Positions 619 through 24,181 of a DNA stretch of 25,968 nucleotides are shown piece by piece. The notes under the pieces are model-generated. The model was not told where the DNA came from and did no database searches. It saw only the letters and a program-made list of their open reading frames with translations. The translations under genes were made by a program, and so were the position numbers. The stretch lies in the IMG/VR virus record IMGVR_UViG_3300044695_000652, positions 1 through 25,968 of that record, one strand, 5' to 3'. Every line of letters starts with the position of its first letter. Position 1 is the stretch's first letter. Source of the stretch: a virus.

Positions 619-621
619 GCA

Positions 622-1155
622 ATGGCCTTTAAGCTCAATCCGTTCACAAGTGGTCTTGATACAGTCCGCAACCAAATGTTGTGGGGGTCGTTTTATGACA
701 CGACTCAGCAGATTGCAGCGGCTGCCAACACTGCCTATTCAGTTGGCATCAATTCAACGGATGCTGATAGCCGTGGGATAAGCATTGTCTCTGGCTCACG
801 AGTCACCTTTTCTAGGGCAGGCGTTTACAGCGTCACTTACTCTGTCCAGTTTGTGAACACAAGCAACTCGATTCACGACATCAATATCTGGCTGCGCAAG
901 AACAATGAAAGCAGCGCTGGCGACGTGCCCGCCAGTGACAGCCGGTTCAGCATTATTTCAAGCCATGGCAATGTTGATGGCCACGTTATTGGTTGCGTGA
1001 ACTATGTTCTGAAACTTGCCGCTAATGATTACTTGGAATTGATCTGGTCTACCACAGACGTAGCCGCTAGTATCCAATCGCTTCCTTCGTCGCCATCGGG
1101 ACCAGCGCATCCTTCCATCCCTGGCATTATCCTTACAGCAGTGCAGGTTGCCTGA
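622..1155 (+). CDS. Putative head fibre / decoration protein with C1q-TNF-like jelly roll (177 aa)
   Basis: The 177-residue protein has a short N-terminal arm (about residues 1-30) followed by a beta-rich domain. The pattern of that domain, VTFSRAGVYSVTYSVQFVN, then a short polar turn, INIWLRKN, and later YLELIWSTTD, resembles the C1q/TNF-like jelly rolls found in trimeric phage head fibres and BclA-type surface proteins. It ends with an ILTAVQVA strand. The gene follows its neighbour by three bases and its TGA overlaps the ATG of the head closure gene. Position in the capsid-neck region suggests a virion surface protein that may bind the cell surface or decorate the head. A tail role is less likely from gene order. 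The fold assignment is inference from strand pattern. Confidence 0.65.
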   Translation: MAFKLNPFTSGLDTVRNQMLWGSFYDTTQQIAAAANTAYSVGINSTDADSRGISIVSGSRVTFSRAGVYSVTYSVQFVNTSNSIHDINIWLRKNNESSAGDVPASDSRFSIISSHGNVDGHVIGCVNYVLKLAANDYLELIWSTTDVAASIQSLPSSPSGPAHPSIPGIILTAVQVA

Positions 1156-1511
1156 TGGCATTAGCTAGTCCGCTACGCAAGGTTGCCAGCAAGCTGATGG
1201 CAAAGTTTGGCGGTGTTGCCACCATCCGCCGGGTAACAACTGGCTCGTATAACACCAGCACTGGCACTGTTAGCGAGACCACGACCGACACCACAGTGCG
1301 TGGCGTGTTGGAAGATGTCAACCTGCGTGAGGTTAATGATCTGATTCAAGCTGGCGACAAGCGACTGTTGATTGCAGCGGCTGATATTGCCAACGCACCT
1401 ACTACAGCCGATGAAGTGCTAATTAGCAGCGTAACGCATCAAGTGATCCAGGTTCGTACGATTGAGCAAGATAACATCGCCATCACCTACGAGCTGATCC
1501 TGAGGGCATAA
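1155..1511 (+). CDS. Head closure / head-tail joining protein
   Basis: The 118-residue product has the length and character of the head closure proteins (SPP1 gp16-like, head-tail joining family) that plug the connector after DNA packaging. A short N-terminal helix (ASKLMAKFGG) is followed by alternating beta strands (ATIRRVTTGSYN, TTVRGVLEDV), a segment on a 'GDKRLLIAAADI' hairpin, and a final strand pair (HQVIQVRTIEQD, AITYELILRA). The Thr/Ser-rich loop at residues 29-45 is typical. The gene is exactly where this family is expected, between capsid and gp10-like genes, and overlaps both neighbours by one base. Assignment is by synteny plus pattern. Confidence 0.75.
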   Translation: MALASPLRKVASKLMAKFGGVATIRRVTTGSYNTSTGTVSETTTDTTVRGVLEDVNLREVNDLIQAGDKRLLIAAADIANAPTTADEVLISSVTHQVIQVRTIEQDNIAITYELILRA

Positions 1512-1909
1512 TGGCGCGCACGATCCGGGTTGCTGATATTGGTGACTACGCCAGCCAGCAGATGGAGAAGCTGCTGCGGGTTGCGGTGCTTGAAACTGAC
1601 AGCAGGCTTAAACAGGCAAGCCCCGTCGATACAGGCCGGTTTCGCGTTAGCTGGCAGGTAGGGGAGAATGCAGCGCCAGGCGGAGAGAAGCCTGCAGGCA
1701 CCTACAGCGGCACTCCGCAAATTGATCGCATCGGATACAGAGAAGAAAAGCTAGGCAATGTCTACAGCGTGCATAACAACCTGCCGTACGCCGAGCCTCT
1801 TGCCAATGGCAGCAGCAAGCAAGCGCCAGCGGGATGGGTGCAAGGCATCGCTAAGGACATCCAAGGGTTTGTACGTACAAATGCCGACCGCATCGGGAGG
1901 GAATCATGA
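1511..1909 (+). CDS. HK97 gp10-like neck/tail completion protein
   Basis: The 132-residue protein shows the hallmark of the HK97 gp10 family: an N-terminal helix (YASQQMEKLLRVAVLETD) leading directly into a 'SPVDTGRFRVSWQVGEN' strand-turn motif at about residues 37-53, where the PVDTG(R/L)-(R)-SW core is the family signature. A later NNLPYAEPLANGSSKQAP segment matches the 'YA..lE.G' loop. Members act at the head-tail junction or in tail completion. The start overlaps the stop of the head closure gene by one base and the stop overlaps the tail terminator start (ATGA), so translation is likely coupled. Confidence is high because motif and synteny agree. Confidence 0.85.
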   Translation: MARTIRVADIGDYASQQMEKLLRVAVLETDSRLKQASPVDTGRFRVSWQVGENAAPGGEKPAGTYSGTPQIDRIGYREEKLGNVYSVHNNLPYAEPLANGSSKQAPAGWVQGIAKDIQGFVRTNADRIGRES

Positions 1910-2328
1910 GCAGCACCTACAACGACGTTCGTGCCGCCATTGAAGGGCGCATTGCAACGCAGATGGCGCTGTCACCTGCGTATCCGGTTAGCTATCAGAA
2001 CGTGCCATTTACGCCACCCAACAACACGCCATGGGTGCAAGCGTTCATCCGCTTTGGCGATAACAGCTACGCCACGCTGCTGCCGACTGGTGGCGTTGGC
2101 TTCAACCGCCAGACTGGCACGCTGGTAATCAATGTCTTTACGCCGCAGGGTCAAGGCACTGCTGCTAACTTCACCATTGCAGAGCGGCTAAAGGATTTGT
2201 TTGATCGCGCCAAGTTTTCAAGCATTATCTTTGATGCAGCCTCGGGGCCAGCGCAAGTAACGCCAGCAGCGCCTGAGCCTTACTTTCAAACTCAGCTAAC
2301 TGCTACGTTTGAAGCCTATTTAGACTGA
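1906..2328 (+). CDS. Tail terminator-like protein (DUF4128-like)
   Basis: The 140-residue protein begins with a helix (YNDVRAAIEGRIATQMA), continues with VSYQNVPFTPPNNTPWVQAF, the 'phe/asn-x-P-f-x-P-p-x-x-t-p-W-v' segment typical of DUF4128 tail terminators, then two long strands (GTLVINVFTPQGQGT) and a helix (FTIAERLKDLFDRAKF). It closes with a strand pair (YFQTQLTATFEAYL). Tail terminators form a ring that stops tail-tube polymerisation and joins tail to head. Position between gp10-like and tail tube genes agrees. It overlaps the upstream gene by four bases and is followed by a 23-base gap before the tail tube gene. Confidence 0.8.
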   Translation: MSSTYNDVRAAIEGRIATQMALSPAYPVSYQNVPFTPPNNTPWVQAFIRFGDNSYATLLPTGGVGFNRQTGTLVINVFTPQGQGTAANFTIAERLKDLFDRAKFSSIIFDAASGPAQVTPAAPEPYFQTQLTATFEAYLD

Positions 2329-2351
2329 ATCTAGCCACTACCGTTCACAAC

Positions 2352-3110
2352 ATGGCTGTTACTGTTTTGTCCGGTACGTCCGGCGCTCTCTACTACAAAC
2401 CCGCCGGCACCAACGGCAACTTTCCCGAATCCGGCGTCAATGCCAGCACTGATGTCATCACCGTTCAGCCGTACCTGAACTTCAAGGCTGGCGATCCGGT
2501 CAAGTTCCGCGTTATCAATAGCCAAACCGGCGGCTCCGGCTCCGGCACGCTGCCGTCTCCGATTGATGCAGCTACCACCTACTACGTGCTGAGCTACACC
2601 GCAGCCACTGGCGCGCTGACCGTATCCACCGCTGCTGGCGGTACTATCCTCGCCATCACCGACGACGGCACGGCTGTGGCGCCTAACGAGTTCGAGGTGT
2701 ACTACGCCGACTATGCCGCCGTTGGCCAGGTGCAGTCTTGGTCGTTTGAGATCAGCCGCGCTGAAATCGACGTCACCACCATCGGGCAAACCGCTGGGCA
2801 GTACGCGCCCTTTCGCGCCTACATCCCCGGTTTCGCCGATGGCAACGGCACTGCCACCATCTACGTGACCAACGAGGACGCTGCACTGTCCAACCGCATG
2901 GTGGAAGACGTGCTGCAGCGCCAGCAGGTTGGCTGCGGCTTCAAGCTGTACACCGACAAGGGCGCCACTGAGGCTCTGAGCCGCAGCATTGCCATGGATG
3001 CCGTGCTGCTGACCGCCAGCCTGAACATCAATCCTGATGATGCTCAGCAAGTGGAGATCACTTTCCGCCCGGCCGGTGCGCCTACTTTTGACTTCAGCAC
3101 TTCTGCTTGA
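2352..3110 (+). CDS. Major tail tube protein
   Basis: The 252-residue protein is the likely tail tube subunit by its place between tail terminator and tail-assembly chaperone. Residues about 10-110 form an inserted beta domain (VITVQPYLNFKAGDPVKFRV, then TTYYVLSYTAATGALTV). The C-terminal half carries a tube-like core: QSWSFEISRAEIDVTTIGQ, then RAYIPGFADGNGTATIYV, and a closing MDAVLLTASLNINPDD strand. The '(E/D)I-x-TT-x-(I/L)-G' plus 'G-x-GTAT-x-x-(Y/F)' pattern recurs in two later genes (11028-11405 and 11408-12547). The start codon follows a short spacer without a Shine-Dalgarno sequence. A stable hairpin follows the stop, which often marks a highly expressed tail tube gene. Confidence 0.85.
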   Translation: MAVTVLSGTSGALYYKPAGTNGNFPESGVNASTDVITVQPYLNFKAGDPVKFRVINSQTGGSGSGTLPSPIDAATTYYVLSYTAATGALTVSTAAGGTILAITDDGTAVAPNEFEVYYADYAAVGQVQSWSFEISRAEIDVTTIGQTAGQYAPFRAYIPGFADGNGTATIYVTNEDAALSNRMVEDVLQRQQVGCGFKLYTDKGATEALSRSIAMDAVLLTASLNINPDDAQQVEITFRPAGAPTFDFSTSA

Positions 3111-3119
3111 TAGTTGAAC

Positions 3120-3141
3120 GGCCCCGGCTTATGCTGGGGCC
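3120..3141 (+). terminator. Hairpin after tail tube gene, possible (partial) terminator
   Basis: Nine-base arms GGCCCCGGC (3120-3128) and GCTGGGGCC (3133-3141) pair with one wobble around a TTAT loop, eight bases after the tail tube stop. There is no U-run, only CACCCACATTTATT, so it may act as a weak or partial terminator or as an mRNA 3' stabiliser that separates the abundant tail tube message from the chaperone genes. Confidence 0.55.
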
Positions 3142-3156
3142 ACCCACATTTATTGC

Positions 3157-3507
3157 ATGGCATCATCTGCACTGGCACGGCTGAAAAAAGCAGCCAATCT
3201 TCAGCCAATTAAGCGCGTTGTAACACTCAACGATGGATCTACATTTGAGTTTTATGCCACGGCTTTGACCATGGCAGAACGTGAGCGCGCGCAGAAGATG
3301 CCTGGTGGTGATGATCCCAATGGTTTTGCGTTGAATCTGCTGGTGACCAAAGCAGCCGACGATGCCGGCCAGCGGCTGTTTCAAGCCGGTGAGATTGCCG
3401 AGCTGAAAAATGATGTGCTTGACAGTGACCTGCAAGCCATGATGCTCGCCATCATCACCAACCCAGAGGAAGGCAAAGAACTGGACATGAAAAGCGGTAA
3501 AGGCTGA
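3157..3507 (+). CDS. Tail assembly chaperone, upstream (G-like) part
   Basis: The 116-residue protein sits between the tail tube and tape measure genes, the fixed place of the G/GT-type tail assembly chaperones. It has an N-terminal basic helix, a strand pair (KRVVTLNDGSTFEFYATALT), a charged segment (MAERERAQKM), and a mainly helical second half (GFALNLLVTKAADDAGQRLF, AELKNDVLDSDLQAMMLAII), matching the usual small alpha/beta chaperone that coats the tape measure protein. It ends with KELDMKSGKG at a TGA. A second open frame continues directly beyond (3491-3679), so a fraction of ribosomes probably shift frame to make a longer form. The start follows the hairpin by 15 bases. Confidence 0.8.
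   Translation: MASSALARLKKAANLQPIKRVVTLNDGSTFEFYATALTMAERERAQKMPGGDDPNGFALNLLVTKAADDAGQRLFQAGEIAELKNDVLDSDLQAMMLAIITNPEEGKELDMKSGKG
3490..3502 (+). promoter_or_regulatory. Probable +1 programmed frameshift site between chaperone frames
   Basis: The upstream frame ends at 3505-3507 and the downstream frame is closed by TGA at 3488-3490, so the switch must occur within 3490-3504 and must be +1 (or -2). The codon AAA at 3490-3492 is followed by another A, so the tRNA can slip forward onto AAA at 3491-3493 with full pairing. A second option is AAA to AAG at 3499-3502. The shift is inferred from frame geometry, not shown experimentally. Confidence 0.55.
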
Positions 3508-3679
3508 GCTGAAGAAAGACAACCTGCTGCTGCTGCAGCTTGGGATTGCCAAAGAACTTGGATATAGCTTGGCGCGATTAAACCAAGAGGTAACGCTTGA
3601 AGAGTTGCTGATATGGTCTAGTTATTTTGAGCTGCAGAACGAAGAGCAAGATCGTAGAATGAAGCAAAGCCGTAGGTAA
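3491..3679 (+). CDS. Tail assembly chaperone, downstream (T-like) extension, expressed by frameshift
   Basis: This frame runs from the stop at 3488-3490 to TAA at 3677-3679, just before the tape measure start. It encodes about 60 residues: KAVKAELKKDNLLLLQLGIA, then KELGYSLARLNQEVTLEELL and IWSSYFELQNEEQDRRMKQS. The helix ending in 'W-x-x-Y-F-x-x-x-x-E' and the charged C-terminus are typical of the T domain that recruits tail tube subunits in GT-type chaperones. No good ATG, GTG or TTG start exists in the first half, so independent translation is unlikely. The fused product would be about 173 residues. The ORF is shorter than common length cut-offs and is easily missed. Confidence 0.7.
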   Translation, partial: KAVKAELKKDNLLLLQLGIAKELGYSLARLNQEVTLEELLIWSSYFELQNEEQDRRMKQSRR

Positions 3680-3682
3680 GTC

Positions 3683-5875
3683 GTGTCGGTTGTCGCCAAC
3701 GTTGCCATTAACGTCGACAGCCGCAACGCGGTTAGCAAGCTGCGCGAGGTTCAGTCACAAGCAGGCGCGACCGAGCGTGCGATTGGCGGCCTTGGCGCGG
3801 TTGTCGGTCGTCTAGCTGGTGCATTTGCAGCGTTCCAAGCCGCTAAGTTTGTTTTTGTCCAAGCAGCAGAAGTTGAAAGCCAACGCCGCAGTTTGGAGGT
3901 ACTGACTGGTAGCGCTCAACGCGCGGGTCAGATCGTCAAAGAGCTGCAAGACCTTGGCGCAGTCACGCCGTTTACCAGCAGTGAGCTTATTGATGCCGCT
4001 AAACGGTTGCAGGCGTTTGGAGTTGAAACTAACAAGGTAGTTGAAACAACGCGCAGGCTTGCCGATGTAAGCGGTGCAACAGGTGCCGAGCTGCAAGGCT
4101 TGGTTACGGCCTATGGGCAAGTGCAGGCCAAAGGAAGATTGCAAGGCGAGGAGCTGTTGCAATTCCAAGAACGTGGTGTTGCACTGCAGCAGGTATTGCG
4201 TGAGGAATATGGTTTAAGTGGTGAGGAGTTCCAAAAGGCACTTGAAAAAGGACGCATCAGCGCAGAAGCGGTTGAATTCGCAATTCAAAAACTTACTGAT
4301 GCCGGTGGCAAATACGCCAATGGCGCCATCGCTCAGAGCGATACGCTAAACGGCAGGCTTAGCACATTGCAGGATTCAATCCAAGTATTAGCGCAAACTA
4401 TTGGCAAAACTTTAGCGCCAGTTTTTCAATGGGCGTTAACTCAAGCGACTGCCGTTGTTAGCGAGATACAACGAATCCTAGACGAAGCTAATAACGCTGG
4501 TGGCGCTAGGGATCGAGAAGCCCAATTTGCGCGAAATGCTGATGCAGCGGTGCGAGCCATGAGGCTTAATCCATTTACACAGCAAGGCATGATGGCTGAC
4601 ATGCGTCAGCGAAACATTGAACAGCAGCGAGCGGATTACAGACTGCGCCAACAGCAAGCAAGGACGCCATCCGCACCAAGCATTACTACTTTGCCGCCTT
4701 TATTGGGCGCCGCAGCCACTGGCAGCAAAGGTCGCGGTGGTAAATCAGACGCAGAAAAGGCGGCAGAAAAAGCAGCACGTGAAGCAGAAAAGCTACGGCA
4801 AGAACTTGAACGATCGCTTGAAGTTGGCGATCAACTTGGCACGCAATTTAGTCGTCAAGCAGCGTTGCTGTTTGAGGGATCAGAAATTGAACGCAAGCGC
4901 CTGCAAATTCAATTTGATTTCCAAGACCGCGCCAAGCAAATTGCAGAGCTGAAGAACGCTGAGCAGCGCACCAACCTGAATCAGCTCAACGCCGAAATCC
5001 AGCGACTTGAGATCATTCAACTACAAACGGAAGAACTAAAAAAGCAAGCAGAAGAAGCTGAGAAGCTCTTTAAGCAAGCGATGGAAGGCGCAGAGTTTGG
5101 CGTAGCAGGCCAAGGCACCGTTGCATCTGGCTTGAGTGATGCAATAGCCAAACTCAAGGAAGACCTAAATCCAATCAAGCTGCAGATTGACGCGATCGTC
5201 AACGGAGCCAATGCAATCGGCAGTGCTTTTGGCCAAGCATTCCAAGATGTCGCAACAGGTGCTAAGTCAACGCAAGAAGCGCTAGCAGATGCGTTTGAAA
5301 GTATCGGCAAGGCATTTGTCAGCATGGCAGCTGAAATCATCGCCAAGCAGATGACCCTGATCATTCTGCAAACCATCTTTAATGCGTTAAGCGGCGGCGG
5401 CAGTGCTTTAGGCACAGCAAACAAGAACCTTACTGGCACGGGGGCACTTAAAACTCCGATTCCAGGATTTGCCATAGGCGGTCGCGCCAACGGCGGCCCA
5501 GTTAGCGGCAACCAGCCTTACATCGTCGGTGAGCGTGGTCCCGAGTTGTTTGTGCCTGGTGTTAGCGGCAGCGTCGTATCCAATGCCGATACCCGCGCCG
5601 CACTAGCCCAGCAAGCCACAAACCGTCAAGGCAATGACACGCGGGCGATGCTTAATCAGCAAACTGCTAACCGTCAGATGAATGCTGGCGGCAGTGCAAT
5701 GCAGCAAAAACCGATCGAGGTCAAATACGAATCGACCGTGATCAATGGCGTTGAATACGTCACCACTGAGCAGCATCAGCGTGGCATTGCGTTGGCAGCA
5801 GAACGCGGCAGGGCACTTACACTGCAAACACTACAAAACTCAGTAAAAACACGTAAGCGCGTAGGTATGGCATGA
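3683..5875 (+). CDS. Tape measure protein (730 aa)
   Basis: The GTG start at 3683 follows the chaperone stop by three bases. Residues about 70-220 match the tape-measure N-terminal domain (a region such as SGSAQRAGQIVKELQDLGAV, then PFTSSELIDAAKRLQAFGVE, VSGATGAELQGLVTAYGQVQ and GRLQGEELLQFQERGVAL). The middle (residues about 345-470) is a long Glu/Lys/Ala/Gln-rich coiled coil. Near residues 520-575 are hydrophobic helices, and the C-terminal region has the usual GGPVSGNQPYIVGERGPELF signature followed by VPGVSG. With about 1.5 A per residue the length predicts a tail near 110 nm, which suits a siphovirus. The protein sets tail length and helps DNA entry. Its stop overlaps the next start (ATGA). 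Confidence 0.93.
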   Translation: MSVVANVAINVDSRNAVSKLREVQSQAGATERAIGGLGAVVGRLAGAFAAFQAAKFVFVQAAEVESQRRSLEVLTGSAQRAGQIVKELQDLGAVTPFTSSELIDAAKRLQAFGVETNKVVETTRRLADVSGATGAELQGLVTAYGQVQAKGRLQGEELLQFQERGVALQQVLREEYGLSGEEFQKALEKGRISAEAVEFAIQKLTDAGGKYANGAIAQSDTLNGRLSTLQDSIQVLAQTIGKTLAPVFQWALTQATAVVSEIQRILDEANNAGGARDREAQFARNADAAVRAMRLNPFTQQGMMADMRQRNIEQQRADYRLRQQQARTPSAPSITTLPPLLGAAATGSKGRGGKSDAEKAAEKAAREAEKLRQELERSLEVGDQLGTQFSRQAALLFEGSEIERKRLQIQFDFQDRAKQIAELKNAEQRTNLNQLNAEIQRLEIIQLQTEELKKQAEEAEKLFKQAMEGAEFGVAGQGTVASGLSDAIAKLKEDLNPIKLQIDAIVNGANAIGSAFGQAFQDVATGAKSTQEALADAFESIGKAFVSMAAEIIAKQMTLIILQTIFNALSGGGSALGTANKNLTGTGALKTPIPGFAIGGRANGGPVSGNQPYIVGERGPELFVPGVSGSVVSNADTRAALAQQATNRQGNDTRAMLNQQTANRQMNAGGSAMQQKPIEVKYESTVINGVEYVTTEQHQRGIALAAERGRALTLQTLQNSVKTRKRVGMA

Positions 5876-6351
5876 GCACATTTGCATTCGTCAATTATGC
5901 GCGCTTTCTGCAGGGCGATGGCACGCCAACCTCGCCGGTTTACGCCTATCAAAACTTCTCCATCAATCAAACACGCACCTACAGCAGCGTGACCTATGCG
6001 TTTGCGCCATTCGGCTACACGCTGGGTGCTGGCAGCAAGGGCGGCGACCGCAGCGAATCCAGTCTTGTTGCAGGATTGGATCCGATCAGCGTCAATATCT
6101 TTGCTGAGGCAGTTGAGTCGCGCTGGTTGCTGGACATCAAAACTGTCAGCCTTGACCCGGAAACATTTGCTGATGATGCGTTGATTCGGTCTGAGCTATG
6201 GCGCGTGGCGCAATACGAAATGGACACCGAGCGCGTAATCCTGAAGCTCTCTAGTCCATTGGATGCCACCAAGGGCGACATCCCTAAGCGTCGCCTGACC
6301 ACTGGCATCGTTGGCGCCTTACCCAGTACCGGCAACGTGGTGATCAGTTGA
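5872..6351 (+). CDS. Minor tail protein (DUF1833 / L-like)
   Basis: The 159-residue protein follows the tape measure directly and precedes an NlpC/P60-like gene, the order seen for minor tail L-type or DUF1833 proteins in lambda-like tail tips. Visible support: ISVNIFAEAVESRWLLDIKT around residues 73-92 and a later VILKLSSPLDATKGDIPKRR segment, where 'L-x-(S/N)-PLD-x-x-x-x-x-(I/L)-P-(R/K)-R' is typical of L-type proteins. The Cys-rich iron-sulphur tail of lambda gpL is absent, so the protein ends early at STGNVVIS. It likely forms part of the ring that connects tail tube to hub. Confidence 0.7.
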   Translation: MSTFAFVNYARFLQGDGTPTSPVYAYQNFSINQTRTYSSVTYAFAPFGYTLGAGSKGGDRSESSLVAGLDPISVNIFAEAVESRWLLDIKTVSLDPETFADDALIRSELWRVAQYEMDTERVILKLSSPLDATKGDIPKRRLTTGIVGALPSTGNVVIS

Positions 6352-6725
6352 TGGACTGGAAGCGCTGGATCGGGCTACCTCATGAGTTTGGCGCCGACCC
6401 GGAAGACGGCAAGGCTGCAGACTGCCTGGTGATGGTGTGGCGCATTCTTGATGATGCCGGCATCCATCACCCGTCAATGGATGCACAGTGGCTGCAGCTT
6501 GCTGAGCAAAAGCGCTGGCCAGAGCTAGAGCAGTTATGGCGTGATGGCACCGTTGAACTTGATGGCCCGCAGCAGCACGCCGTAACGCTGATCCGCAATG
6601 GCCCAGCCGGCCTTGGCGTAAGTATCGTTGTAGATGATGGGCTTTTGTTGGTGCATCACAGACGTGGCGTCCGATGGGTGCCGCTGTCGTATATGCCGAG
6701 TCTTCGCTTCTACAGGTTTCGCTGA
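6351..6725 (+). CDS. NlpC/P60-like tail tip peptidase (K-like)
   Basis: The 124-residue protein starts at the ATG that overlaps the upstream TGA. An in-frame TTG one codon earlier is a less likely start. It has the compact layout of phage-tail NlpC/P60 domains: an N-terminal WIGLPHEFG, then the nucleophile region KAADCLVMVWRIL with Cys25 at the start of a helix, and a later strand with GLLLVHHRRGVRW where His102 or His103 is the likely catalytic histidine. Such domains cleave peptidoglycan cross-links to let the tail tube through the cell wall. It lies between the L-like and hub genes, the same place as lambda K. Sequence similarity is moderate, so catalysis is an inference. Confidence 0.7.
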   Translation: MDWKRWIGLPHEFGADPEDGKAADCLVMVWRILDDAGIHHPSMDAQWLQLAEQKRWPELEQLWRDGTVELDGPQQHAVTLIRNGPAGLGVSIVVDDGLLLVHHRRGVRWVPLSYMPSLRFYRFR

Positions 6726-9700
6726 TGCTGCCTTCTGATCGCTACCTCGCAAGCCTACTGGGTCTGACAGACGAGCAATATCTGTACTTCAAGGCCGAAG
6801 TGGCGCGACACGCTAAGGAGCAGCCGGCTCCGGCTGTAGTTGCAGGCATTGATCCAGTTACGCTATCGATAATTATTACGGTCATCGGTATTGGTTTTCA
6901 GGTTGCAGCAAGCTTCCTGAAGCCAAGCATTCCACAGCAGCAAGGCGGCCGGCCTGCACAGTTGCAGGCACGCAACCGCAGCGATGCACCGATCACCAAT
7001 AACCAGCGCTATACCCCGCGCTACGGATTCGACAGCACGCAAGACATCACCACACTGGGCAGCACCATCCCACTGGTATATGCGCTGCGTGAGGCCATCA
7101 GCGGCACAACTTACGGCGGTGTGCGCGTAAGCACCCCGATGCTCTGGAGCCAGATTTACAGCCTCGGCGGCAGTCAACTGCTGCGTGCGATCTTCATGAT
7201 TGGCGAGGGTCCGATCGGCGGCATTGATGCCAAAAACTTTGCGGCTGGCGGCAACACGCTGGCTAGCTACGACTTCGGCAACAGCACAGCCAACAGTGCC
7301 GGCAGCAGGCTCACCGTTTATGGCCGAGTGGGTAGTGGCTTAACCACACGCATTGCATCCGGTGATCGGATCTTCGGCCGTGCTGCTAACGCCGACGCGG
7401 GCAATGCGCAGAACGTAGGCGGATCTGATGTGTTCATGGTGCGTCGTGGCAGCAGCTGGGCAGCAGACTTCAGCAGTGCCACCAAACCCAATAACCAAAC
7501 AATCTTTGGCGTCTACACGCTCATCGGCAACGACTTTGGGTTCAAGGTCAATCCAGTAATTCGCCCGCGCGTACAAGCGCAGTTGGTGCCTGAAGGCGAC
7601 GACGGCGATGCGCAGGTGAAATGCAAGATCGATGATGTTGCGTGGGCGCAACGTAAGAAAGCACAGACCTACTTCAGCAGCCGCAGCGGATTGGTGAGCG
7701 GCAGCGTCGGCAGCGTCGGCAGCACGATCACCTACAAGCTCTATCCCACCAGCGACAAGGACACGGAGTTCAGCCGTGACCTGCGCACGCTGACCAATAC
7801 GGCAGCATGGAGCGTCAGCAAAGAGCAGATCACAAAAGAAGGTGCTGCTGGTTACAACAAACCAGCAAGTCAAGACAGCCGCGCAAAGTGGGTTTACGAA
7901 TACGACGATGAATCAGTTTCAGATCTAAAAAGCCGACTGAGTGCAACTGTCAACAGCGTAACAATCGACTCCGAAGGCATTGGCACGTTAAACGCAACTT
8001 TTACGTTTGATACAACTGGACTTGGTGTTTACGACGACAGCGATAATATCGACACAGATATTGAAGTATTGAAAGCAAGTAAGTTCCGCGTTACCTTTAC
8101 CAACCCAGCGATCACGGACGATGACGACGAAGCGGTCTGCAAGTACACCGTCAAGATCAGGGTCCGCACAAAAGCAACCCAAAAGATTAAACGAGCAACG
8201 TTAAGCAACGTCAGCCTCAGTACAACCACGGCAGTTGTAGATGGTGTAACTGTTGTGACTAGCGTTAGCGCTAGCGGCGGCGGAGGTGACATTGATATTG
8301 ATGCGGTCAACAATAACCAAACGCCAGTCTTCAGAATTCAAGACGGCACCAGCGTAACTGGCAATGGCACCATCACTGTCACCAAAAACCTAAAGTTTGA
8401 TGCCACGCAAATTCATATCGAAAAGTGCGCTGATGTAGCTGGCACCGTTGCAGGCCGCCAGAAGACATGGGACGACGCGATCATCCCAGGCGAGCTCTAC
8501 AAGGTCGGCTCAGCGCTTGCAATCTGCACCAGCCGCACCGATGACGTGTTTGTCTCAGAAGCCGATATATCTAGCGGCAGCGGCACTGAAATCACTGCGG
8601 TGTTTACGACTGTGCGCACTGGATCAGTCACGCTCAATACGCAAGCCAACATTGAGCGCGATGGCGATGACTACCTAGCGGGCAGTTACGAACTGCGCAA
8701 CGTCGCCACAGCGCCCGATGGCCATATCTTGCGTTGCGCCATCGCAAGCGTTTCAACCACACGCCCATGCCAAGCTGTTGAGTTTGGCATCCGCTCGCGC
8801 ATTGGCATTCGTATCAACGGATTCTGCAATCTCAAGGATTCGATCAGCTTTACCCAAGCCGATGATCGTGCCTGCATTAGCCGCAAAGACGACATCATCG
8901 AGCGCGGCTCCACGCTAAAGGTGGATGTGTTCCAAAGCAACACGATCACAACTACAGAGGAGCGTTACAGCTTTTTCAAGATCGGTTACCGCGAAGCCGG
9001 TAGCGGCGGTGCATTCACGATCTTGAGCAACACTTATGGCATCCGCGGCGCAACACAGCAGAACGTGTTCAACTACGTGCAGTTGAACATGCCATCGTTG
9101 AAGCAGTGGGAGTTCAACATTGAACCGCTATCTGGTTTTGAGGTGCGCGCGGGCACTGGCATTAATACCCTCTACGTCCTAGATGCACGACTGAGCACCC
9201 GGCAGGTAGTGACTGATGGTTCGGTCACCGTTGCCTTCAATGGGGAATCAGTTCCTCGTACAGCCGAGCAATTTGCCATTGCCGCAGTCCGTGGAGAAGG
9301 TAAAGGTATCCCTGAACTGGATCCAAGCAATTACGGCAGCGCAGCAGATCGCAGTTACCTCGACACATGGGGCAAGCTTGCGGAAGCCTTCGTCTACGAA
9401 GAGGCCCAAAGCAGCGCCGGCAGTGGACCTGAACACGAAGTGGTGTACATCAACGAGATCGTTCCGAATGCCACGGCGCCGGTCTATGACGACCTCGCCC
9501 TAGTCGGCATCAACGTGATGAGTTCGGTTGAGTGGCAGCAGTTTGGGCAGTTCAGTTGCTATGTGACCGGCGGCAAAACGTGCCGGCGCCTGCGGAACAG
9601 CCTTGCGGTTGGCGCCACGCACCTATTCCCTGATGTGCTGCTGGATCTGATGACCAATGCCACCTATGGCGCTGGTGATCTGATCACCGATGAGATGATC

Positions 9701-16189: not shown

Positions 16190-16552
16190 ATGACCGATCA
16201 AGCTTACCGGGGCGTGCCCCACACACCTTGGGCTAAAGACGGAAAAGTCTTTCTGGCCAACGACGAAGACAGTCATTACACCCAAGAGTTCCACAGCCGC
16301 GAGGAAGTACAAACCTTTGCAATTCAGTTGCTCGTTAAAGCGAGCGAGGCTTGGCCGCTTGACTGCGAAAAAGCATTAGCCCAAGAAGACTACAGAAGTT
16401 TGTGTGCTGAGCTGATTAACAGCATCCACGCAAGCCGCTGTACTCAAATGGGTTGGACCAAAGAGAAAGAGGATGAATTACTTACACGTGCTGCACTAGC
16501 TGTAGGCGAAGGTTATTTTACGCCGACAGCGTGGAACATTCTTGCCCAGTAG
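16190..16552 (+). CDS. Hypothetical protein (120 aa)
   Basis: The ATG follows CTAGAAACC, with no Shine-Dalgarno sequence. The N-terminal half (YRGVPHTPWAKDGKVFLAND, then DSHYTQEFHSREEVQTFAIQ) looks like a small alpha/beta unit. The second half begins DYRSLCAELINSIHASRC, closely resembling the DFRSLCAELLQELEHA start of the minus-strand protein at 20817-21302, and continues with KEDELLTRAALAVGEG. That stretch is a module seen in several cyanophage hypothetical proteins. No catalytic motif is seen. It lies in the accessory zone between fibre and lysis genes. Confidence 0.7.
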   Translation: MTDQAYRGVPHTPWAKDGKVFLANDEDSHYTQEFHSREEVQTFAIQLLVKASEAWPLDCEKALAQEDYRSLCAELINSIHASRCTQMGWTKEKEDELLTRAALAVGEGYFTPTAWNILAQ

Positions 16553-16571
16553 TCATTACCACTAATCACCC

Positions 16572-16727
16572 ATGACTGAAGAACAAATTGAAATGCTTCG
16601 CTCCATTATCAAACAAGAGATTGAAGCGGCTGGTATTGACGGCATGGAACACGGCGCTTGGGGTTGGGCAGAACGAATGCTTGACGAAAACTGGGAAGAG
16701 TTTAGAAAGTCTTTTGAAGTCCAGTAG
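16572..16727 (+). CDS. Small acidic helical protein (51 aa)
   Basis: The ATG at 16572 starts a 51-codon frame ending at TAG 16725-16727. The product is acidic and mainly helical: MTEEQIEMLRSIIKQEIEAA, then GIDGMEHGAWGWAERMLDEN and WEEFRKSFEVQ. The clean hydrophobic periodicity and the 'HGAWGWAERMLDENW' segment look like a real protein, and it follows the previous stop by 19 bases. Function unknown. It was found by reading through the gap and is shorter than usual cut-offs. Confidence 0.55.
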   Translation: MTEEQIEMLRSIIKQEIEAAGIDGMEHGAWGWAERMLDENWEEFRKSFEVQ

Positions 16728-16749
16728 TCACCTTCTCTAGTCACCTTCT
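16725..16749 (+). repeat. Direct repeat of a 12-base unit
   Basis: TAGTCACCTTCT occurs at 16725-16736 and again at 16738-16749, one base apart. The first copy includes the TAG stop of the upstream small gene, so the duplication is at or just past the coding end. It may be a recent slippage duplication or a protein binding site. Confidence 0.7.
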
Positions 16750-16764
16750 AATTTGACTCAAATT
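16750..16764. promoter_or_regulatory. Perfect palindrome, operator-like
   Basis: AATTTGA-C-TCAAATT is a perfect seven-base inverted repeat with one central base, right behind the 12-base direct repeat and about 90 bases before the gene at 16855. Its AT-rich arms contrast with the surroundings. It could be a repressor site or a small hairpin. A second inverted pair, GCAACC (16795-16800) with GGTTGC (16814-16819), lies in the same 127-base gap. No convincing -10/-35 pair is seen. Confidence 0.35.
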
Positions 16765-16854
16765 TGAAGTTGGCCAGTCCACGTCGCTAGGCGGGCAACC
16801 GGCCTACTCAACTGGTTGCACTCCTACTAACCTGCTACTGAACACGGTTTTACC

Positions 16855-17160
16855 ATGGCCACCACCTTTACGTGGGGTATCAACACCCTTGAGCGCGAAA
16901 CCGACGACGGCTTTGTGTTTACCGCTCACTACACCGTCAACGCTGAAGACGGCACCTATTCGGCTGGTGCGTACGGCAGCATCGGCTTTACACGCCCCGA
17001 CAACCTCATTCCGTACAACCAGCTCCAAGAGGACACCGTGATCGGCTGGGTCAAGGAAGCCCTAGGAGGTGACGAGAAAGTGGCCGAGATCGAAGCTGCA
17101 CTGCAAGCTCAGATCGACGAGCAGCGCAGCCCTAGCAAGGCTGCAGGTGTGCCCTGGTAA
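16855..17160 (+). CDS. DUF7936-like cyanophage protein (101 aa)
   Basis: The start codon reads ACCATGG. The protein begins ATTFTWGINTLERETDDGFV and continues FTAHYTVNAEDGTYSAGAYG, SIGFTRPDNLIPYNQLQEDT and VIGWVKEALGGDEKVAEIEA, ending in a basic tail SPSKAAGVPW. A beta-rich first half with 'HYTV-x-A-x-DG-x-YSAG-x-YG' and a helical second half with 'VIGWVKEALGGDEKVAEIEAAL' are the pattern of a family common near fibre and lysis genes of cyanophages and other phages. A minor structural role is often assumed; no activity is shown here. Confidence 0.8.
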   Translation: MATTFTWGINTLERETDDGFVFTAHYTVNAEDGTYSAGAYGSIGFTRPDNLIPYNQLQEDTVIGWVKEALGGDEKVAEIEAALQAQIDEQRSPSKAAGVPW

Positions 17161-17164
17161 AAGG

Positions 17165-17215
17165 GTGGCAGGTGGCCGGTCCTCACGCGGTGCCGGCCTC
17201 CCCGCAGCCTGCCAC
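17165..17215 (+). terminator. Nested GC-rich hairpin after the DUF7936-like gene
   Basis: Outer arms GTGGCAGG (17165-17172) and CCTGCCAC (17208-17215) are perfect complements. Inside them GGCCGG (17174-17179) and CCGGCC (17193-17198) form a second perfect stem with a 13-base loop. The structure begins four bases after the stop. It lacks a U-run, so it may be a non-canonical terminator, an attenuator or an mRNA end stabiliser. Confidence 0.5.
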
Positions 17216-17224
17216 TGCGGATCG

Positions 17225-17249
17225 CCTAAACGCCTCAAAAGGGTTTAGG
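17225..17249 (+). terminator. Second hairpin before lysis cassette
   Basis: CCTAAAC (17225-17231) pairs with GTTTAGG (17243-17249); inside, CCT and AGG pair around a CAAA loop, leaving one bulged G. It follows the first hairpin by nine bases. TGTCAAGCTT follows, again without a U-run. Confidence 0.45.
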
Positions 17250-17254
17250 TGTCA

Positions 17255-17275
17255 AGCTTAGCAGGTGGCTAAGCT
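17255..17275 (+). promoter_or_regulatory. Third hairpin, displaying a purine-rich loop just upstream of the lysis genes
   Basis: AGCTTAGC (17255-17262) and GCTAAGCT (17268-17275) are perfect eight-base arms around the loop AGGTG. The loop carries the only Shine-Dalgarno-like bases before the ATG at 17282, so the hairpin may control translation of the first lysis gene. This role is inferred. Confidence 0.45.
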
Positions 17276-17281
17276 AATGGC

Positions 17282-17530
17282 ATGATCGAGCTGATCGCTG
17301 CTATCGCCGGGGCGTCGATCTCCGTTGCTGCAATGGGCGCAATGGGCTTTAGCCGCCGCAATGACGAAGCGCGTGATGCGGTCATTCGGCTGACCAGCGC
17401 AGTGGAGCACATTGCCACGCAACTAGAAGTGCTGCACACCGATATCAAAGAAGACCGCAAGGAGACATTTACGCGGCTGAATACGGTTGAGCAAAGGGTA
17501 TCTAAGCTAGAGGCACGGCCGCCTGCTTAG
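17282..17530 (+). CDS. Lysis-cassette membrane protein with coiled coil (82 aa)
   Basis: Residues about 3-24 (ELIAAIAGASISVAAMGAMG) form one hydrophobic segment, followed by a basic FSRR stop-transfer and a soluble helical domain: DAVIRLTSAVEHIATQLEVL, KEDRKETFTRLNTVEQRVSK. The latter is a heptad-rich coiled coil. This topology fits an accessory holin, antiholin or inner-membrane spanin-like protein. It is the first gene of a three-gene set (gap of two bases, then a four-base overlap) that ends in the endolysin. Which of the two small proteins is the true holin cannot be said from sequence alone. Confidence 0.75.
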   Translation: MIELIAAIAGASISVAAMGAMGFSRRNDEARDAVIRLTSAVEHIATQLEVLHTDIKEDRKETFTRLNTVEQRVSKLEARPPA

Positions 17531-17532
17531 CC

Positions 17533-17718
17533 ATGGATCGCCTTGCTGATTACGTTGCTTTAGCAGTCGCCATTCATGGCGTCGCGTTGATCGTGGTCAA
17601 CTTGACGCCAACACCAAAAGACAACAAAGCACTAAGAAAAACCGCCAAACTTGCGGTCAAGCTTTATAGGGCTATTGAAGTGCTTGCTGGTGTTGTCACT
17701 CCATTGGTTAAGCGATGA
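17533..17718 (+). CDS. Putative holin (61 aa)
   Basis: This small protein has one hydrophobic segment at about residues 6-26 (DYVALAVAIHGVALIVVNLT), a polar basic middle (PTPKDNKALRKTAKLAVKLY) and a second weakly hydrophobic amphipathic helix (RAIEVLAGVVTPLVKR). Small size, membrane helix, basic C-terminus and direct overlap with the endolysin gene (ATGA) are typical of phage holins. The pattern 'VNLTPTPKD...YRAIEVLAG' looks like a family common in cyanophage lysis cassettes. It would make membrane holes that release the endolysin. A start at CCATGG fits its neighbours. Confidence 0.7.
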   Translation: MDRLADYVALAVAIHGVALIVVNLTPTPKDNKALRKTAKLAVKLYRAIEVLAGVVTPLVKR

Positions 17719-18773
17719 TCAAGCTATCCGACCTATTCAAGTACTACAAGCACGGCACGCCGCATCAAATGGCGGCCATCTCTGAATTAGAGGCTGAGCT
17801 ATTAAAGGTTGCGCCTGAAGTCTTTAACAGGGATCAGCATTGGTACAAGACCTGGCAGGCTGGCGGCAAGTTGCATAATTATGACCCAGCCATAAAACTC
17901 ATTAAAGAGTTCGAGGGCGTGCACCTTAGCGCTTATCCAGATCCGCTGCACGGATGGGACGTTGCAACCATCGGTTATGGCACCACGCGCTACCCAGATG
18001 GCCGCAAGGTGCAACGCGGCGACAAGATCACCGTAATTGATGCCGATCAGCTACTAGCACTTGAAGTGGAGCGCATCGCCGCAAAACTGCGCAATAGCGT
18101 GCCGTTTTGGAATAAGATGACGGGCAACAAGCAATGCGCGTTGATCTCCTTCGCTTACAACCTTGGCGCCGGCTTCTACGGCAGCACTGGTTTTGAGACG
18201 ATCAGTAAATGCCTTGTTGGCAAGGACTGGCAGGCAGTGCCAGCAGCAATGGAGTTGTACCGCAACCCAGGCAGTGCCGTAGAGGCAGGCTTGCTGCGTC
18301 GTCGCCGCGCAGAAGGCAGGCTATGGGCTGGTGAGCAGCAGCAGGATCCATCCAAGCTGTCACCCAATAGCGCATTTACAGCTCGCATTACGCCGCACGT
18401 GCAGCTTGGTGAGTTTGCGCTATTTCAAGAAGCACGGCGCTTTGACCATCAATACCAGCTCGACACGGCAGCAGAGCTAGCGGCATTCCTTGAGCGTGCA
18501 CGTGTCAAGTTTGGCGGCAAGCCTGTGGTCATCACCAGCGGCTATCGCCCGCGTGCCATCAATGCAGCGGTAGGTGGCTCCAGTGGCAGCGAGCACCTAT
18601 ACGATGCACCTGACGTTGGTGCTGTTGATTTTTATATCCGCGAGGTCAACATTAACCACGTGCAAGAGTGGTGCGATCAGAACTGGCCGTATTCACTCGG
18701 TTACGGCGCACCTAAGGGATTTGTGCATTTAGGAATGCGTCGCGGCAAGCCAAAGGTACGATGGGATTATTGA
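17715..18773 (+). CDS. Two-domain endolysin: GH24 lysozyme + M15 peptidase (352 aa)
   Basis: Residues about 58-206 form a T4-type lysozyme (GH24): KLIKEFEGVHLSAYPD carries the catalytic Glu67, Asp76 lies nine residues on as in T4 (Glu11, Asp20), and ATIGYGT holds Thr85. ALISFAYNLGAGFYGST and LLRRRRAEGRLW complete the fold. Residues about 222-352 form a peptidase M15_3 domain with TSGYRPRAINAAVGGSSGSE, His294, a GAVDF motif (Asp305) and FVHLGM (His338) as zinc ligands. The protein can therefore attack both sugar and peptide bonds of peptidoglycan. An N-terminal 55-residue helical extension has no clear function. No signal peptide, so release should depend on the holin. Confidence 0.92.
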   Translation: MIKLSDLFKYYKHGTPHQMAAISELEAELLKVAPEVFNRDQHWYKTWQAGGKLHNYDPAIKLIKEFEGVHLSAYPDPLHGWDVATIGYGTTRYPDGRKVQRGDKITVIDADQLLALEVERIAAKLRNSVPFWNKMTGNKQCALISFAYNLGAGFYGSTGFETISKCLVGKDWQAVPAAMELYRNPGSAVEAGLLRRRRAEGRLWAGEQQQDPSKLSPNSAFTARITPHVQLGEFALFQEARRFDHQYQLDTAAELAAFLERARVKFGGKPVVITSGYRPRAINAAVGGSSGSEHLYDAPDVGAVDFYIREVNINHVQEWCDQNWPYSLGYGAPKGFVHLGMRRGKPKVRWDY

Positions 18774-18782
18774 AGCCACTGC

Positions 18783-19100
18783 GTGGATCACTGCATTGAT
18801 GGCGCAAACCTCATCCCGAAACGCAGTGCAAAACATAGATTCAGGCAGCAAATCTTTGAGGCATGGCAGCATCAATGTGCCTACTGCGGAGATGCAGCTG
18901 ACACGTTAGACCACGTCAAGCCGCGCCACAAAGGCGGCGCCACTGTAACGACTAATCTTGTGCCAGCTTGCAGGCCATGTAATCGAAAGAAGGGCAGCGA
19001 AGAATGGCAACAGTGGTTCAATCAGCAGGATTCTTATCTGCTAGATCGTGAGCTTGCTGTGCTGCACTGGATTCAAGCATCTGATGATAGAACACCCTAG
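18783..19100 (+). CDS. HNH endonuclease (105 aa)
   Basis: Start at GTG 18783, nine bases after the endolysin stop; no in-frame ATG is nearby. The HNH core is complete: CAYCG (Cys32, Cys35), TLDHVKPRHKGG (Asp43-His44), TTNLVPACRPCNRKKGS (Asn58, Cys63, Cys66, Asn67). The two CxxC pairs bind a structural zinc. Small free-standing HNH enzymes are often found near terminase genes and help packaging, or act as homing endonucleases. Here it is the last late gene and faces the sigma factor gene tail to tail, with 23 bases between them. Which role applies cannot be decided from this window. Confidence 0.88.
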   Translation: MDHCIDGANLIPKRSAKHRFRQQIFEAWQHQCAYCGDAADTLDHVKPRHKGGATVTTNLVPACRPCNRKKGSEEWQQWFNQQDSYLLDRELAVLHWIQASDDRTP

Positions 19101-19123
19101 CTTGCCATTCTTGCTGGTGATCT

Positions 19124-20050
19124 TTACACATTCCCGCTAGGCAGACCCTCCAGACGTTCCCGACTTTCTGTATTGTTGGCGCCAAGTGGGGTGCCTGCCA
19201 GCGGGTTGCCTATCAGCATACGAAGGCGGCTGATGCCACGCCTTTGTATTTCGCACATGCGTGCACGTGACAGGCCCATGCGCTTTTCTAGGTCATTCCA
19301 TGGCACTGGATTGCGACTGTTGCGTGCATAGATGATTTCACGAGTGCGATCATCTAAATGCTCATCGCAATAGTCGCGCACCGTTTCAAGTTGCCAATCG
19401 TATTCAACGTCGTATTGTCTTTTATCGGCAATGATGTCAAGAATGTTAGATGATTCATCTTGCGCAGGCTTATCAAGACTTGTGACTCGATACGACTGCT
19501 GCAATGTGTCAGATATCACCTTAGGGGTCACATCAAGCACTGCGGCAAGCTCCGCCATGGTTGCTGTGCGTCCGTGCTCTTGCGCAAATGCCTGCGCTGT
19601 CTTGTTGAGCTTGATCAGCATTTCATGTACGCCAAGCGGCAGCCTGATGATTGGATCGTATTGAATCAATGCACGCCCGATGGATTGACGGATCCACCAG
19701 TAGGCGTAGGTGCTGAACTTGTATCCGCGAGTGTAGTCAAACAACTCGACAGCGCGCGCAAGACCGATGTTGCCTTCCTGGATCAGATCCAACATGTCAA
19801 GCGTTTGCGTGTTGCGCCTGCTGTACTTGCGTGCAACATGCACTACAAGCTGCAGGTTGGATTGCATGAACTTTTGCCGCGCGCGCTCACCGCTGCGTAG
19901 TTCGCGGCGTTCTTGTGTCGTCAAAGGTCTTTCAAGATCCTTTAATTCTCTCCACTTTGAAACTCGGCGGCCAAGTTGTATCTCTTGTTGCGGTGTGAGT
20001 AATGGATACCGCGCGATACTGTTTAAGTAGTCGCCAATAGCGTCAGACAT
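19124..20050 (-). CDS. Phage-encoded sigma-70 family RNA polymerase sigma factor (308 aa)
   Basis: I chose the internal ATG at 20050, because the sigma homology begins right there; an in-frame ATG at 20101 would add an unrelated 17-residue leader. Region 1.2 is DAIGDYLNSIARYPLLTPQQ (about 3-22). Region 2 spans about 60-132 with NLQLVVHVARKYSRRNTQTL, LDLIQEGNIGLARAVELFDY and FSTYAYWWIRQSIGRALIQY, so core binding and -10 recognition parts are intact. Region 3 follows (about 140-195, RLPLGVHEMLIKLNK). Region 4 is at about 225-282 with the -35 helix LSRARMCEIQRRGISRLRML. Region 1.1 is missing, as in group-2 factors. It is the last gene of the minus-strand module and may direct host polymerase to phage late promoters. 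Resemblance to cyanobacterial group-2 factors suggests acquisition from a host. Confidence 0.93.
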   Translation of the reverse strand: MSDAIGDYLNSIARYPLLTPQQEIQLGRRVSKWRELKDLERPLTTQERRELRSGERARQKFMQSNLQLVVHVARKYSRRNTQTLDMLDLIQEGNIGLARAVELFDYTRGYKFSTYAYWWIRQSIGRALIQYDPIIRLPLGVHEMLIKLNKTAQAFAQEHGRTATMAELAAVLDVTPKVISDTLQQSYRVTSLDKPAQDESSNILDIIADKRQYDVEYDWQLETVRDYCDEHLDDRTREIIYARNSRNPVPWNDLEKRMGLSRARMCEIQRRGISRLRMLIGNPLAGTPLGANNTESRERLEGLPSGNV

Positions 20051-20309
20051 GGAGAATCCGTTAGTGCATACAATGGAAGCACAATTCCACGGTGCTGCCA
20101 ATGCTGCGCAGCTACGTGCGTTACATGCTGCAGCAGATTGGGGCGGACTGTTGGAATATGCGCTGCTGCTAGCCGAGCAAGAAGCAAGCCAGCGGTCTCA
20201 AATCCACTGGCTTGCGCAAGAGGCGTCGGCAGCATTGCGGACTGGTCTAGAGCAGTGGCACCTAGATGCCGCTGAGGAACTGCTTCGAGGCCGTCGTCGT
20301 GATGTCTGA
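20049..20309 (+). CDS. Lone plus-strand helical protein (86 aa, or 78 aa from 20073)
   Basis: This ORF fills the only gap in the minus-strand module, between the sigma gene start and the dCTP deaminase end, and reads the other way. Its ATG at 20049 overlaps the sigma start codon; the ATG at 20073 (MEAQFHGAANAAQLRALHAA) avoids this and may be the true start. The protein is two helices: AANAAQLRALHAAADW, then GLLEYALLLAEQEASQRSQI followed by HWLAQEASAALR, and an acidic-basic tail. The 'EAQF...(Y)-x-LLL-x-x-Q-x-x-x-R-x-x-I-x-x-L' spacing loosely recalls NblA, the small phycobilisome-degradation adaptor, but this is a weak pattern. The last 48 bases overlap the dcd gene. No Shine-Dalgarno sequence. 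Confidence 0.55.
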   Translation: MENPLVHTMEAQFHGAANAAQLRALHAAADWGGLLEYALLLAEQEASQRSQIHWLAQEASAALRTGLEQWHLDAAEELLRGRRRDV

Positions 20310-23774: not shown

Positions 23775-24181
23775 TGCAATTCAAGGGTTGGCTGAGACAC
23801 AAAGTCGGTAAATTGATACTTGCGTATCTTGCCTGATGGCTTGATTGGGCAAGCGCCATTCGGCCATCTGTCAGCGCAGATGGCATTTGATACTTGATTG
23901 TCAAATCGCGTGCAACCTGCATTCTCCAAATACTCTTCGTCTAGCGAGCGCAAATCAGTGTACTTTTTAAGGAAAAAACGAAGAATACTAAGATCAAACT
24001 CTTCAGCGTTAATGTCTTTCTTGAGTCTTTCTATGTTAGCGGAGATTAAAAAACGTATTTCAGGGACACTGTGGTAACTCCGCTGTATATTCGGTTTAGC
24101 CTTCGCCTTGCTTTCCAATAGTCGTTTAGTAATTATATTGTCTATAAATGCAATTTGTTCAGGGGTGAACAGATCGTCCAT
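23771..24181 (-). CDS. AT-rich orphan protein between exonuclease and RecT (136 aa)
   Basis: I do not recognise this protein. It is Lys/Asn/Ile/Phe-rich: FTPEQIAFIDNIITKRLLES, then VPEIRFLISANIERLKKDIN and FDLSILRFFLKKYTDLRSLD, all helical, followed by a segment with three cysteines (AGCTRF, NAICADRWPNGACPI) and KPSGKIRKYQF. The cysteine part could bind a metal. Its DNA is clearly more AT-rich than the flanking genes, with runs such as GGAAAAAACG, which suggests recent transfer. It starts three bases after the exonuclease stop and overlaps RecT, so it is well built into the operon. Confidence 0.7.
   Translation of the reverse strand: MDDLFTPEQIAFIDNIITKRLLESKAKAKPNIQRSYHSVPEIRFLISANIERLKKDINAEEFDLSILRFFLKKYTDLRSLDEEYLENAGCTRFDNQVSNAICADRWPNGACPIKPSGKIRKYQFTDFVSQPTLELQ

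Follow-up and report, generated by a model that had tools for sequence, protein, structure and literature searches.

The window analysed here is the whole of a 25,968-base virus record, whose nearest named relatives are Synechococcus phages, S-CBS3 first (blastn of 16500-18900). Between the stop codon of a DUF7936 gene and an ORF of 82 amino acids it holds a gap at 17161-17281, and a gene for a phage lysozyme and M15 peptidase follows (Table 1). The question raised by this locus is what the structured sequence in the gap does there. The 82-aa protein matches a PHROG without assigned function, and its membership of a lysis module is our reading from its place. A preliminary description had seen three perfect hairpins filling the whole gap and had taken them for a control element timing lysis or for a processed small RNA. 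Our results indicate that the element recurs at varied places in many relatives among the viruses of aquatic cyanobacteria, and that it looks like an undescribed viral RNA, not a lysis switch.

Table 1 Positions in the window of the conserved element, its parts and the neighbouring genes.
Feature	Position	Strand	Remark or basis
DUF7936 gene	16855-17160		upstream of the gap
Whole conserved RNA element, ~104 nt	17159/17161-17262	+	5' AAW to 3' A-NNN-TAGC
Stem a, 5' strand GGCAGG	17167-17172	+	pairs with 17208-17213
Stem b, 5' strand	17174-17179	+	pairs with 17193-17198
Core tip UCCUCACGCGGUG, closing pairs CC/GG around hexaloop UCACGC (17183-17188)	17180-17192	+	near-invariant in main class
Stem b, 3' strand	17193-17198	+	covariation in A3
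Stem c, 5' strand CCGCAG, pseudoknot	17202-17207	+	pairs with 17215-17220
Stem a, 3' strand, doubling as loop of stem c	17208-17213	+	covariation in A3
Stem c, 3' strand CTGCGG	17215-17220	+	covariation in A3
Variable hairpin d, 9-bp stem, A-rich loop	17223-17251	+	stem frequency against shuffles
Conserved 3' end A-NNN-TAGC	17255-17262 (TAGC 17259-17262)	+	conservation in 56 sequences
Third hairpin	17255-17262/17268-17275	+	element 3' end plus leader of 82-aa gene
Spacer and leader of 82-aa gene GCTAAGCTAATGGC	17263-17281	+	outside element; forms the non-conserved third hairpin with element 3' end
82-aa ORF	17282-17530		directly downstream of the gap
Phage lysozyme and M15 peptidase gene	17715-18773		downstream of the 82-aa ORF

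The sequence 17161-17281 folds at -61.2 kcal/mol, compared with -47.2 (sd 3.6) in 200 dinucleotide shuffles, none of which was as good (z -3.91). Three stem-loops thus lie where the preliminary description had placed them, although they belong to one RNA unit ending at TAGC and not to three modules. Helices are present in what it had called a nested hairpin, but these are not perfect and build a pseudoknot, in which 17208-17213 is the loop of the helix 17202-17207/17215-17220. Its observation that a U-run is lacking holds, as a simple consensus scan covering 16500-17800 found no terminator-like site (a GC hairpin followed by a U-run) on the plus strand. Nor did that scan find a promoter-like site, and no tRNA was found in the window. 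On the minus strand, 17640-17658 carries a terminator-like hairpin with a T-rich tail inside a 61-aa ORF, at about the number expected by chance.

Relatives were viral contigs fetched by the two flanking proteins (the best 80 of 570 and the best 80 of 536), and the counts of relatives and of element matches are lower bounds, to be read as 'at least'. From these best 80 per flanking protein the gap was cut out of 82 of 161 relative loci, 39 of them distinct; in many relatives the gap measures 121-127 nt and contains a homologous element, in others it is longer and the element lies beside a small ORF, and still others lack the element. A search of viral_contigs with the core added at least the further members among the matches listed. 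Alignment A1 holds 56 diverse members and was made after 17 of 72 non-redundant candidates had been removed by eye (13 from genome_contigs and four, L203, L204, L223 and L241, from viral_contigs). A2 is A1 minus two (54 rows), and A3 joins 30 A2 rows with 20 of 22 core variants (50 rows). In A1, 93.5% of the cells pair and 12 of the 20 pairs change on both sides, with a covariation score of 0.276 against 0.086 in shuffled alignments, none of 500 reaching it, and no more than 0.033 when the pairing is slid. The A1 members were picked partly by stems a and b, which raises the percentage paired of these two stems, while stem c played no part in the choice. Covariation in relatives, the check that the preliminary description had itself put forward, is found in all three stems, since in A3 compensatory change affects 15 of the 20 pairs of stems a, b and c, and the score of 0.326 compares with 0.102 in shuffled alignments and with no more than 0.065 in slid ones. 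Further pair types are mildly above chance, being 21 against 18.2 in A1 (reached by 30 of 500 shuffles) and 25 against 21.4 in A3 (20 of 500). This covariation supports a conserved structured RNA, as predicted from the alignments, which fits the 'processed small RNA' of the preliminary description.

The comparison shows, at the level of predicted structure, stems a, b and c, the a/c pseudoknot, the hexaloop UCACGC, hairpin d and the 3' end A-NNN-TAGC, with the strand order a b b' c a' c' d d'. Stem a is paired in 98.7% of the A3 cells, its members having been chosen partly by stem a, and changes on both sides in five of its six pairs; one pair of stem b is UA in 24, CG in 17 and GC in nine rows of A3. 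In stem c two-sided changes affect four of six pairs, for example AU 28, UA 18 and CG 2 in A3, and one pair is C-A in 37 of 56 members of A1, probably as a non-canonical pair. Stem c encloses the 3' strand of stem a as its loop, which makes the a/c arrangement a pseudoknot, and because the two stems use different bases both should be able to coexist. Hairpin d varies in sequence; of 29 non-redundant segments, drawn from 106 distinct ones, 25 have a stem of 5 bp or more, compared with 48% of shuffles (mean z -2.2). The stems do not discriminate when stripped of the loop sequence, as a descriptor scan gave 1198 matches against 1202 in reversed sequence.

Because the viral_contigs core search selected on the core, its constancy was judged from the protein-anchored set and from stem-anchored scans. 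Two scans anchored on stem a and the bases next to it found the exact core in 45 of 53 and in 24 of 91 distinct matches, the latter among the matches listed; matches with another core mostly look unrelated, and 22 among those listed are true variants. Several of the variants exchange a closing C-G for G-C and retain UCACGC or a near relative (UCCCGA, GCACGA, UCGCGC), and L490 is more divergent. One closing pair in A3 is C-G in 42, G-C in seven and unpaired in one of the 50 rows, and CCTCACGCGG is present in 148 of 179 copies. About 11 nt of the main-class core (noted for the window, 17180-17192, and L609) are complementary to a 16S-like stretch with ACCGCGTGAGGGA from one of six cyanobacterial genomes. 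We consider an antisense action on 16S rRNA unlikely, given that the loop variants UCCGCACGAGG, UCCUCCCGAGG and GGCUCACGCACC lose most of the complementarity and keep the fold, and the match of the main-class core is probably a coincidence.

The element has sharp edges. Across 52 contexts with differing upstream sequence, conservation sets in abruptly at AAW, which lies 21 bases ahead of the core, and further up reaches at most 0.24 bit at any position shown; in the window the initial bases of the element overlap the DUF7936 stop codon. On the 3' side conservation drops after A-NNN-TA(G/A)C, with A in 55, T in 54, A in 54, G in 47 and C in 56 of 56 sequences. A likeness of this TAGC to the sso CS-6 motif extends over four bases and was set aside. 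The same 52 contexts hold no promoter of the element's own at a fixed distance. The third hairpin, whose loop was said to hold Shine-Dalgarno-like bases, folds as described but lies partly outside the unit. Among 15 distinct sequences of the 82-aa context its 3' arm is invariant, and one or two mismatches occur in six, none of them compensated, even though the search required an inner TAGC/GCTA and was therefore biased towards the hairpin. The loop, AGGTG in the window, varies among these sequences to CGACA, TGGTA, GGGTA and others. We read the third hairpin as a probable junction effect.

Covariance models R1 and R2 were searched over whole viral records. In the window the single real match is that of R2 at 17164-17229 (81.1 bits, E 1e-15; the next best has 11.3 bits). 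Matches were found in 33 of 42, 19 of 30 and 28 of 35 records of three sets (R1/R2) that were largely chosen for holding the element. In the set of 30, 15 comprise every record of 35 kb or more among the relatives kept from the two protein searches (the best 80 each), and the other 15 (25-34 kb) were handpicked, some as known carriers. The least biased estimate of carriage is therefore that from these longer records, 11 of 15. G035, G036, G042 and G437 are long relatives that gave no match, so that the element seems dispensable for the lineage. The carriers amount to 62 distinct viral records, of which 61 hold a single copy and one (G459, L521) holds two on opposite strands, at 23983-24047 (-) and 32610-32675 (+). 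Outside these relatives the searches were negative: R1 gave nothing convincing in seven named cyanophages, apart from one weak match in S-CBS3 (15.4 bits, E 0.24), and 0 of 386 in cyanobacterial genomes searched with stricter filters, a set that holds no positive control. By blastn against 50,697 named phage records the window copy had no match at E<=10, and two other members matched only short pieces at E 4. Core-pattern matches in genome_contigs, among those listed, were judged chance on inspection of their sequences. Gene content was compared between 17 genomes with the element and only three without it, in which small proteins encoded by the ORFs G024|1+7510, G452|1-7864 and G024|1+4709 occurred in 13, 11 and 10 of the 17 and in none of the three; these are possible partners or mere lineage markers. 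The second and third may be one family, and G024|1+7510 matches neither Pfam nor PHROGs.

A list of loops combined with stems a and c identified 179 distinct copies, some of them doubtful (odd loops; L241 and L248 unassigned), whose junctions were assigned by homology to the neighbour genes. The element precedes a convergent HNH gene in 69 copies, c15 in 30, the 82-aa gene in 25, a sigma factor in 12, a dCTP deaminase gene in five and a convergent tail fibre gene in two, with 36 unassigned. Both dCTP deaminase clusters match the dCTP deaminase family in PHROGs and Pfam, and c15, c18 and c23 have no match in either. The window has its own phage sigma-70 family factor at 19124-20101 (-), convergent with the lysis and HNH genes across a junction of just 23 bases (19101-19123). 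A gene upstream is on the same strand as the element in 112 of 115 copies with an anchor within 700 nt, the anchors having been picked from clusters seen beside the element in a way that favours co-directional ones. Two checks were added because of this hand choice. In the first, the DNA of DUF7936, dCTP deaminase, c18, c23 and c15 has its best coding score in the assumed frame, a plus frame for the four main anchors named first, and the assumed frames are free of stops except for one of the five dCTP deaminase rows, which strengthens the strand argument. The second, an anchor-free test of the 150 nt upstream, weakens it: of 93 comparable copies, 77 favour the element strand (57 of them clearly) and 16 the opposite one (11 clearly). 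The contrary copies belong mainly to the junction with the convergent HNH gene, and the 150 nt tested there may be spacer. Co-directionality of the element with the upstream gene is well supported and has exceptions. At the 82-aa site the element and the lysis genes point the same way, and at the HNH site they are opposed; the orientation of the element therefore follows that of its operon, and this favours a function as RNA rather than as DNA.

The place of the element is also changeable. Among 78 evaluable relatives with the 82-aa gene, the element lies within 320 nt upstream of it in 43 and is absent in 35. One of the relatives (L023) carries it before its dCTP deaminase gene and has none before its 82-aa gene, while another (L121) shows the reverse, its empty site being a short unrelated spacer; in this single filled/empty pair no target duplication or terminal repeats were found. 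On a tree of 143 assigned copies, built on short sequences of 87 nt, junctions change at least 29 times; 100 shuffles gave 62-73 changes, and the smallest number possible is five. The element thus appears to have been inherited mostly with its place, yet to have been moved or exchanged with modules many times. The site before the lysis genes in the window is one among several slots.

The varied junctions, together with a third hairpin that lies partly outside the unit and shows no compensatory change, leave the lysis control proposed in the preliminary description unsupported. The RNA occurs at several other junctions, only 43 of the 78 evaluable 82-aa relatives have it within 320 nt upstream, and the hairpin meant to act as the gate is not conserved. 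A transcriptional or translational gate timing lysis would explain why 25 copies, the window's included, precede the 82-aa gene and why Shine-Dalgarno-like bases sit in the third hairpin, but 118 of the 143 assigned copies are elsewhere, 35 of 78 evaluable 82-aa loci go without the element, and neither hairpin nor loop is retained; we therefore consider it highly improbable. A gate acting by sequestration of the Shine-Dalgarno bases was rejected on the same variation, which is uncompensated in the 15 distinct sequences. Likewise, a riboswitch or 5' leader regulator was set aside, because the downstream gene differs and 69 of the 179 copies face a convergent gene, and stop-codon readthrough or frameshifting because, on inspection, upstream gene and linker lengths vary. 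A more serious competitor, which we hold to be possible and yet rather unlikely, is a cis-acting element of the mRNA that would close the upstream gene on its 3' side or sit at an operon joint, and would block exonucleases, direct cleavage or terminate transcription without a U-run. It would account for an ORF stop at most 6 nt from the 5' edge (47 of the 99 copies for which an upstream ORF was called), for the shared direction with the upstream anchor (112 of 115), for the commonest site being a convergent operon end (69 of 179) and for the very stable fold. A general terminator or stabiliser would, however, be expected at several operon ends, whereas 61 of 62 carriers have a single copy. Its position just upstream of co-directional genes argues in the same direction, a terminator in the window would cut off a gene beginning 20 bases further on, an interval too short for a promoter, and a roadblock needs no near-invariant hexaloop.

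The usually single copy, the strict structure and the sharp edges are also what a DNA site acting as a folded single strand, for replication, priming or packaging, would display. This reading is as improbable as the lysis gate, because the element stays aligned with the gene upstream of it even though its host operons run either way with respect to the lysis module, and because its location differs between related genomes. A small mobile element, MITE-like or a homing unit moving among intergenic sites, receives barely more credence from us: the edges, the several insertion sites, the filled/empty pair and the at least 29 junction changes against a minimum of five suit it, but the junction is far from random on the tree (29 changes against 62-73 in the shuffles), there is almost never more than one copy, and neither target duplication nor terminal repeats mark the pair compared. 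We favour, by a little over even chances, a phage-borne structured RNA of ~104 nt, a single-copy RNA gene that would be cut from operon transcripts and act in trans, the processing and the trans action being inferred. We propose that the RNA would be made within whichever operon hosts the element, that its compact ends would release or protect it, and that it would present the hexaloop UCACGC in trans to a partner of host or phage. The single copy, the free place, the kept direction, the sharp edges, the strict fold and the near-constant loop together give the element the look of an RNA gene. Speaking against an RNA gene, no promoter of its own stands at a fixed distance or showed up in the scan of 16500-17800, four of the 15 longer records (35 kb or more; protein searches, best 80 each) lack it, no partner emerged from the comparison of 17 genomes with and three without the element, and a single-copy cis element would look alike. 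More tentatively, and with the odds against it, the RNA gene may belong to a new class of phage RNA effector, whose pseudoknotted body would expose UCACGC to machinery of the host, be it ribosome, RNA polymerase or RNase; the gene would be slotted wherever the time of expression suits.

The element was also compared with known systems. The window has no match in Rfam 15 at the gathering threshold, nor do eight relative loci, and at E<=10 the stretch 17100-17320 matches only mir-341 (E 8.1), read as chance. No description of the element was recognised among the open-access papers listed by literature searches, which is weak evidence of absence. To our knowledge, few phage structured RNAs have a known role. 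The packaging RNA of phi29 is phage-encoded, structured and present once per genome; the element resembles it in size and in its one copy per genome. The put antitermination RNAs of HK022 are hairpins with conserved tips that act in cis near operon starts; the element shares a conserved hairpin tip but has no fixed place. With intrinsic terminators it has in common a GC-rich hairpin at gene ends, and differs in having no U-run and in possessing a pseudoknot and a conserved hexaloop. The HDV fold is a nested double pseudoknot with the strand order P1 P2 P3 P3' P1' P4 P2', in which a P2 strand lies between P1 and P3. An HDV-like fold, that of theta ribozymes included, was rejected for the element, since the covarying strands a b b' c a' c' differ from this order and no HDV-type model of Rfam matched. 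Theta ribozymes are reported to be compact and HDV-like, to lie in non-coding regions of phages, mostly sense to their neighbours, and to be sited at tRNAs (PMC10879173). The element is likewise compact, non-coding and mostly sense to its neighbours; it differs in that the window holds no tRNA. The manA and wcaG motifs are described in Weinberg 2010 (PMC2864571) as structured RNAs of cyanophages and marine metagenomes found by comparative genomics, as lying in potential 5' UTRs of metabolic genes and as having Rfam entries. The element is similar in being a structured RNA found by comparison in cyanophage relatives, and differs in matching no Rfam family and in having no consistent downstream gene. 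Its kind, a phage structured RNA, is already known, and the family fits no tested Rfam model; a strongly covarying, pseudoknotted RNA that is kept at one copy per genome and can shift from one operon to another is a clear candidate actor in the infection of aquatic cyanobacteria.

The surroundings of the 82-aa gene have further features in common among relatives. Many relatives that lack the element have, ahead of this gene, a leader similar to that of the window (TAA, a few bases, then GATGGC or alike). An ORF of ~45 aa, small and very basic and ending much like ...KKPLRGQGR, often precedes the 82-aa gene where the element is absent, or follows the element (L030, L031, L043, L054, L057, L062 and others). 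The window does not carry this ORF, yet keeps a GCTAA leader that resembles its end.
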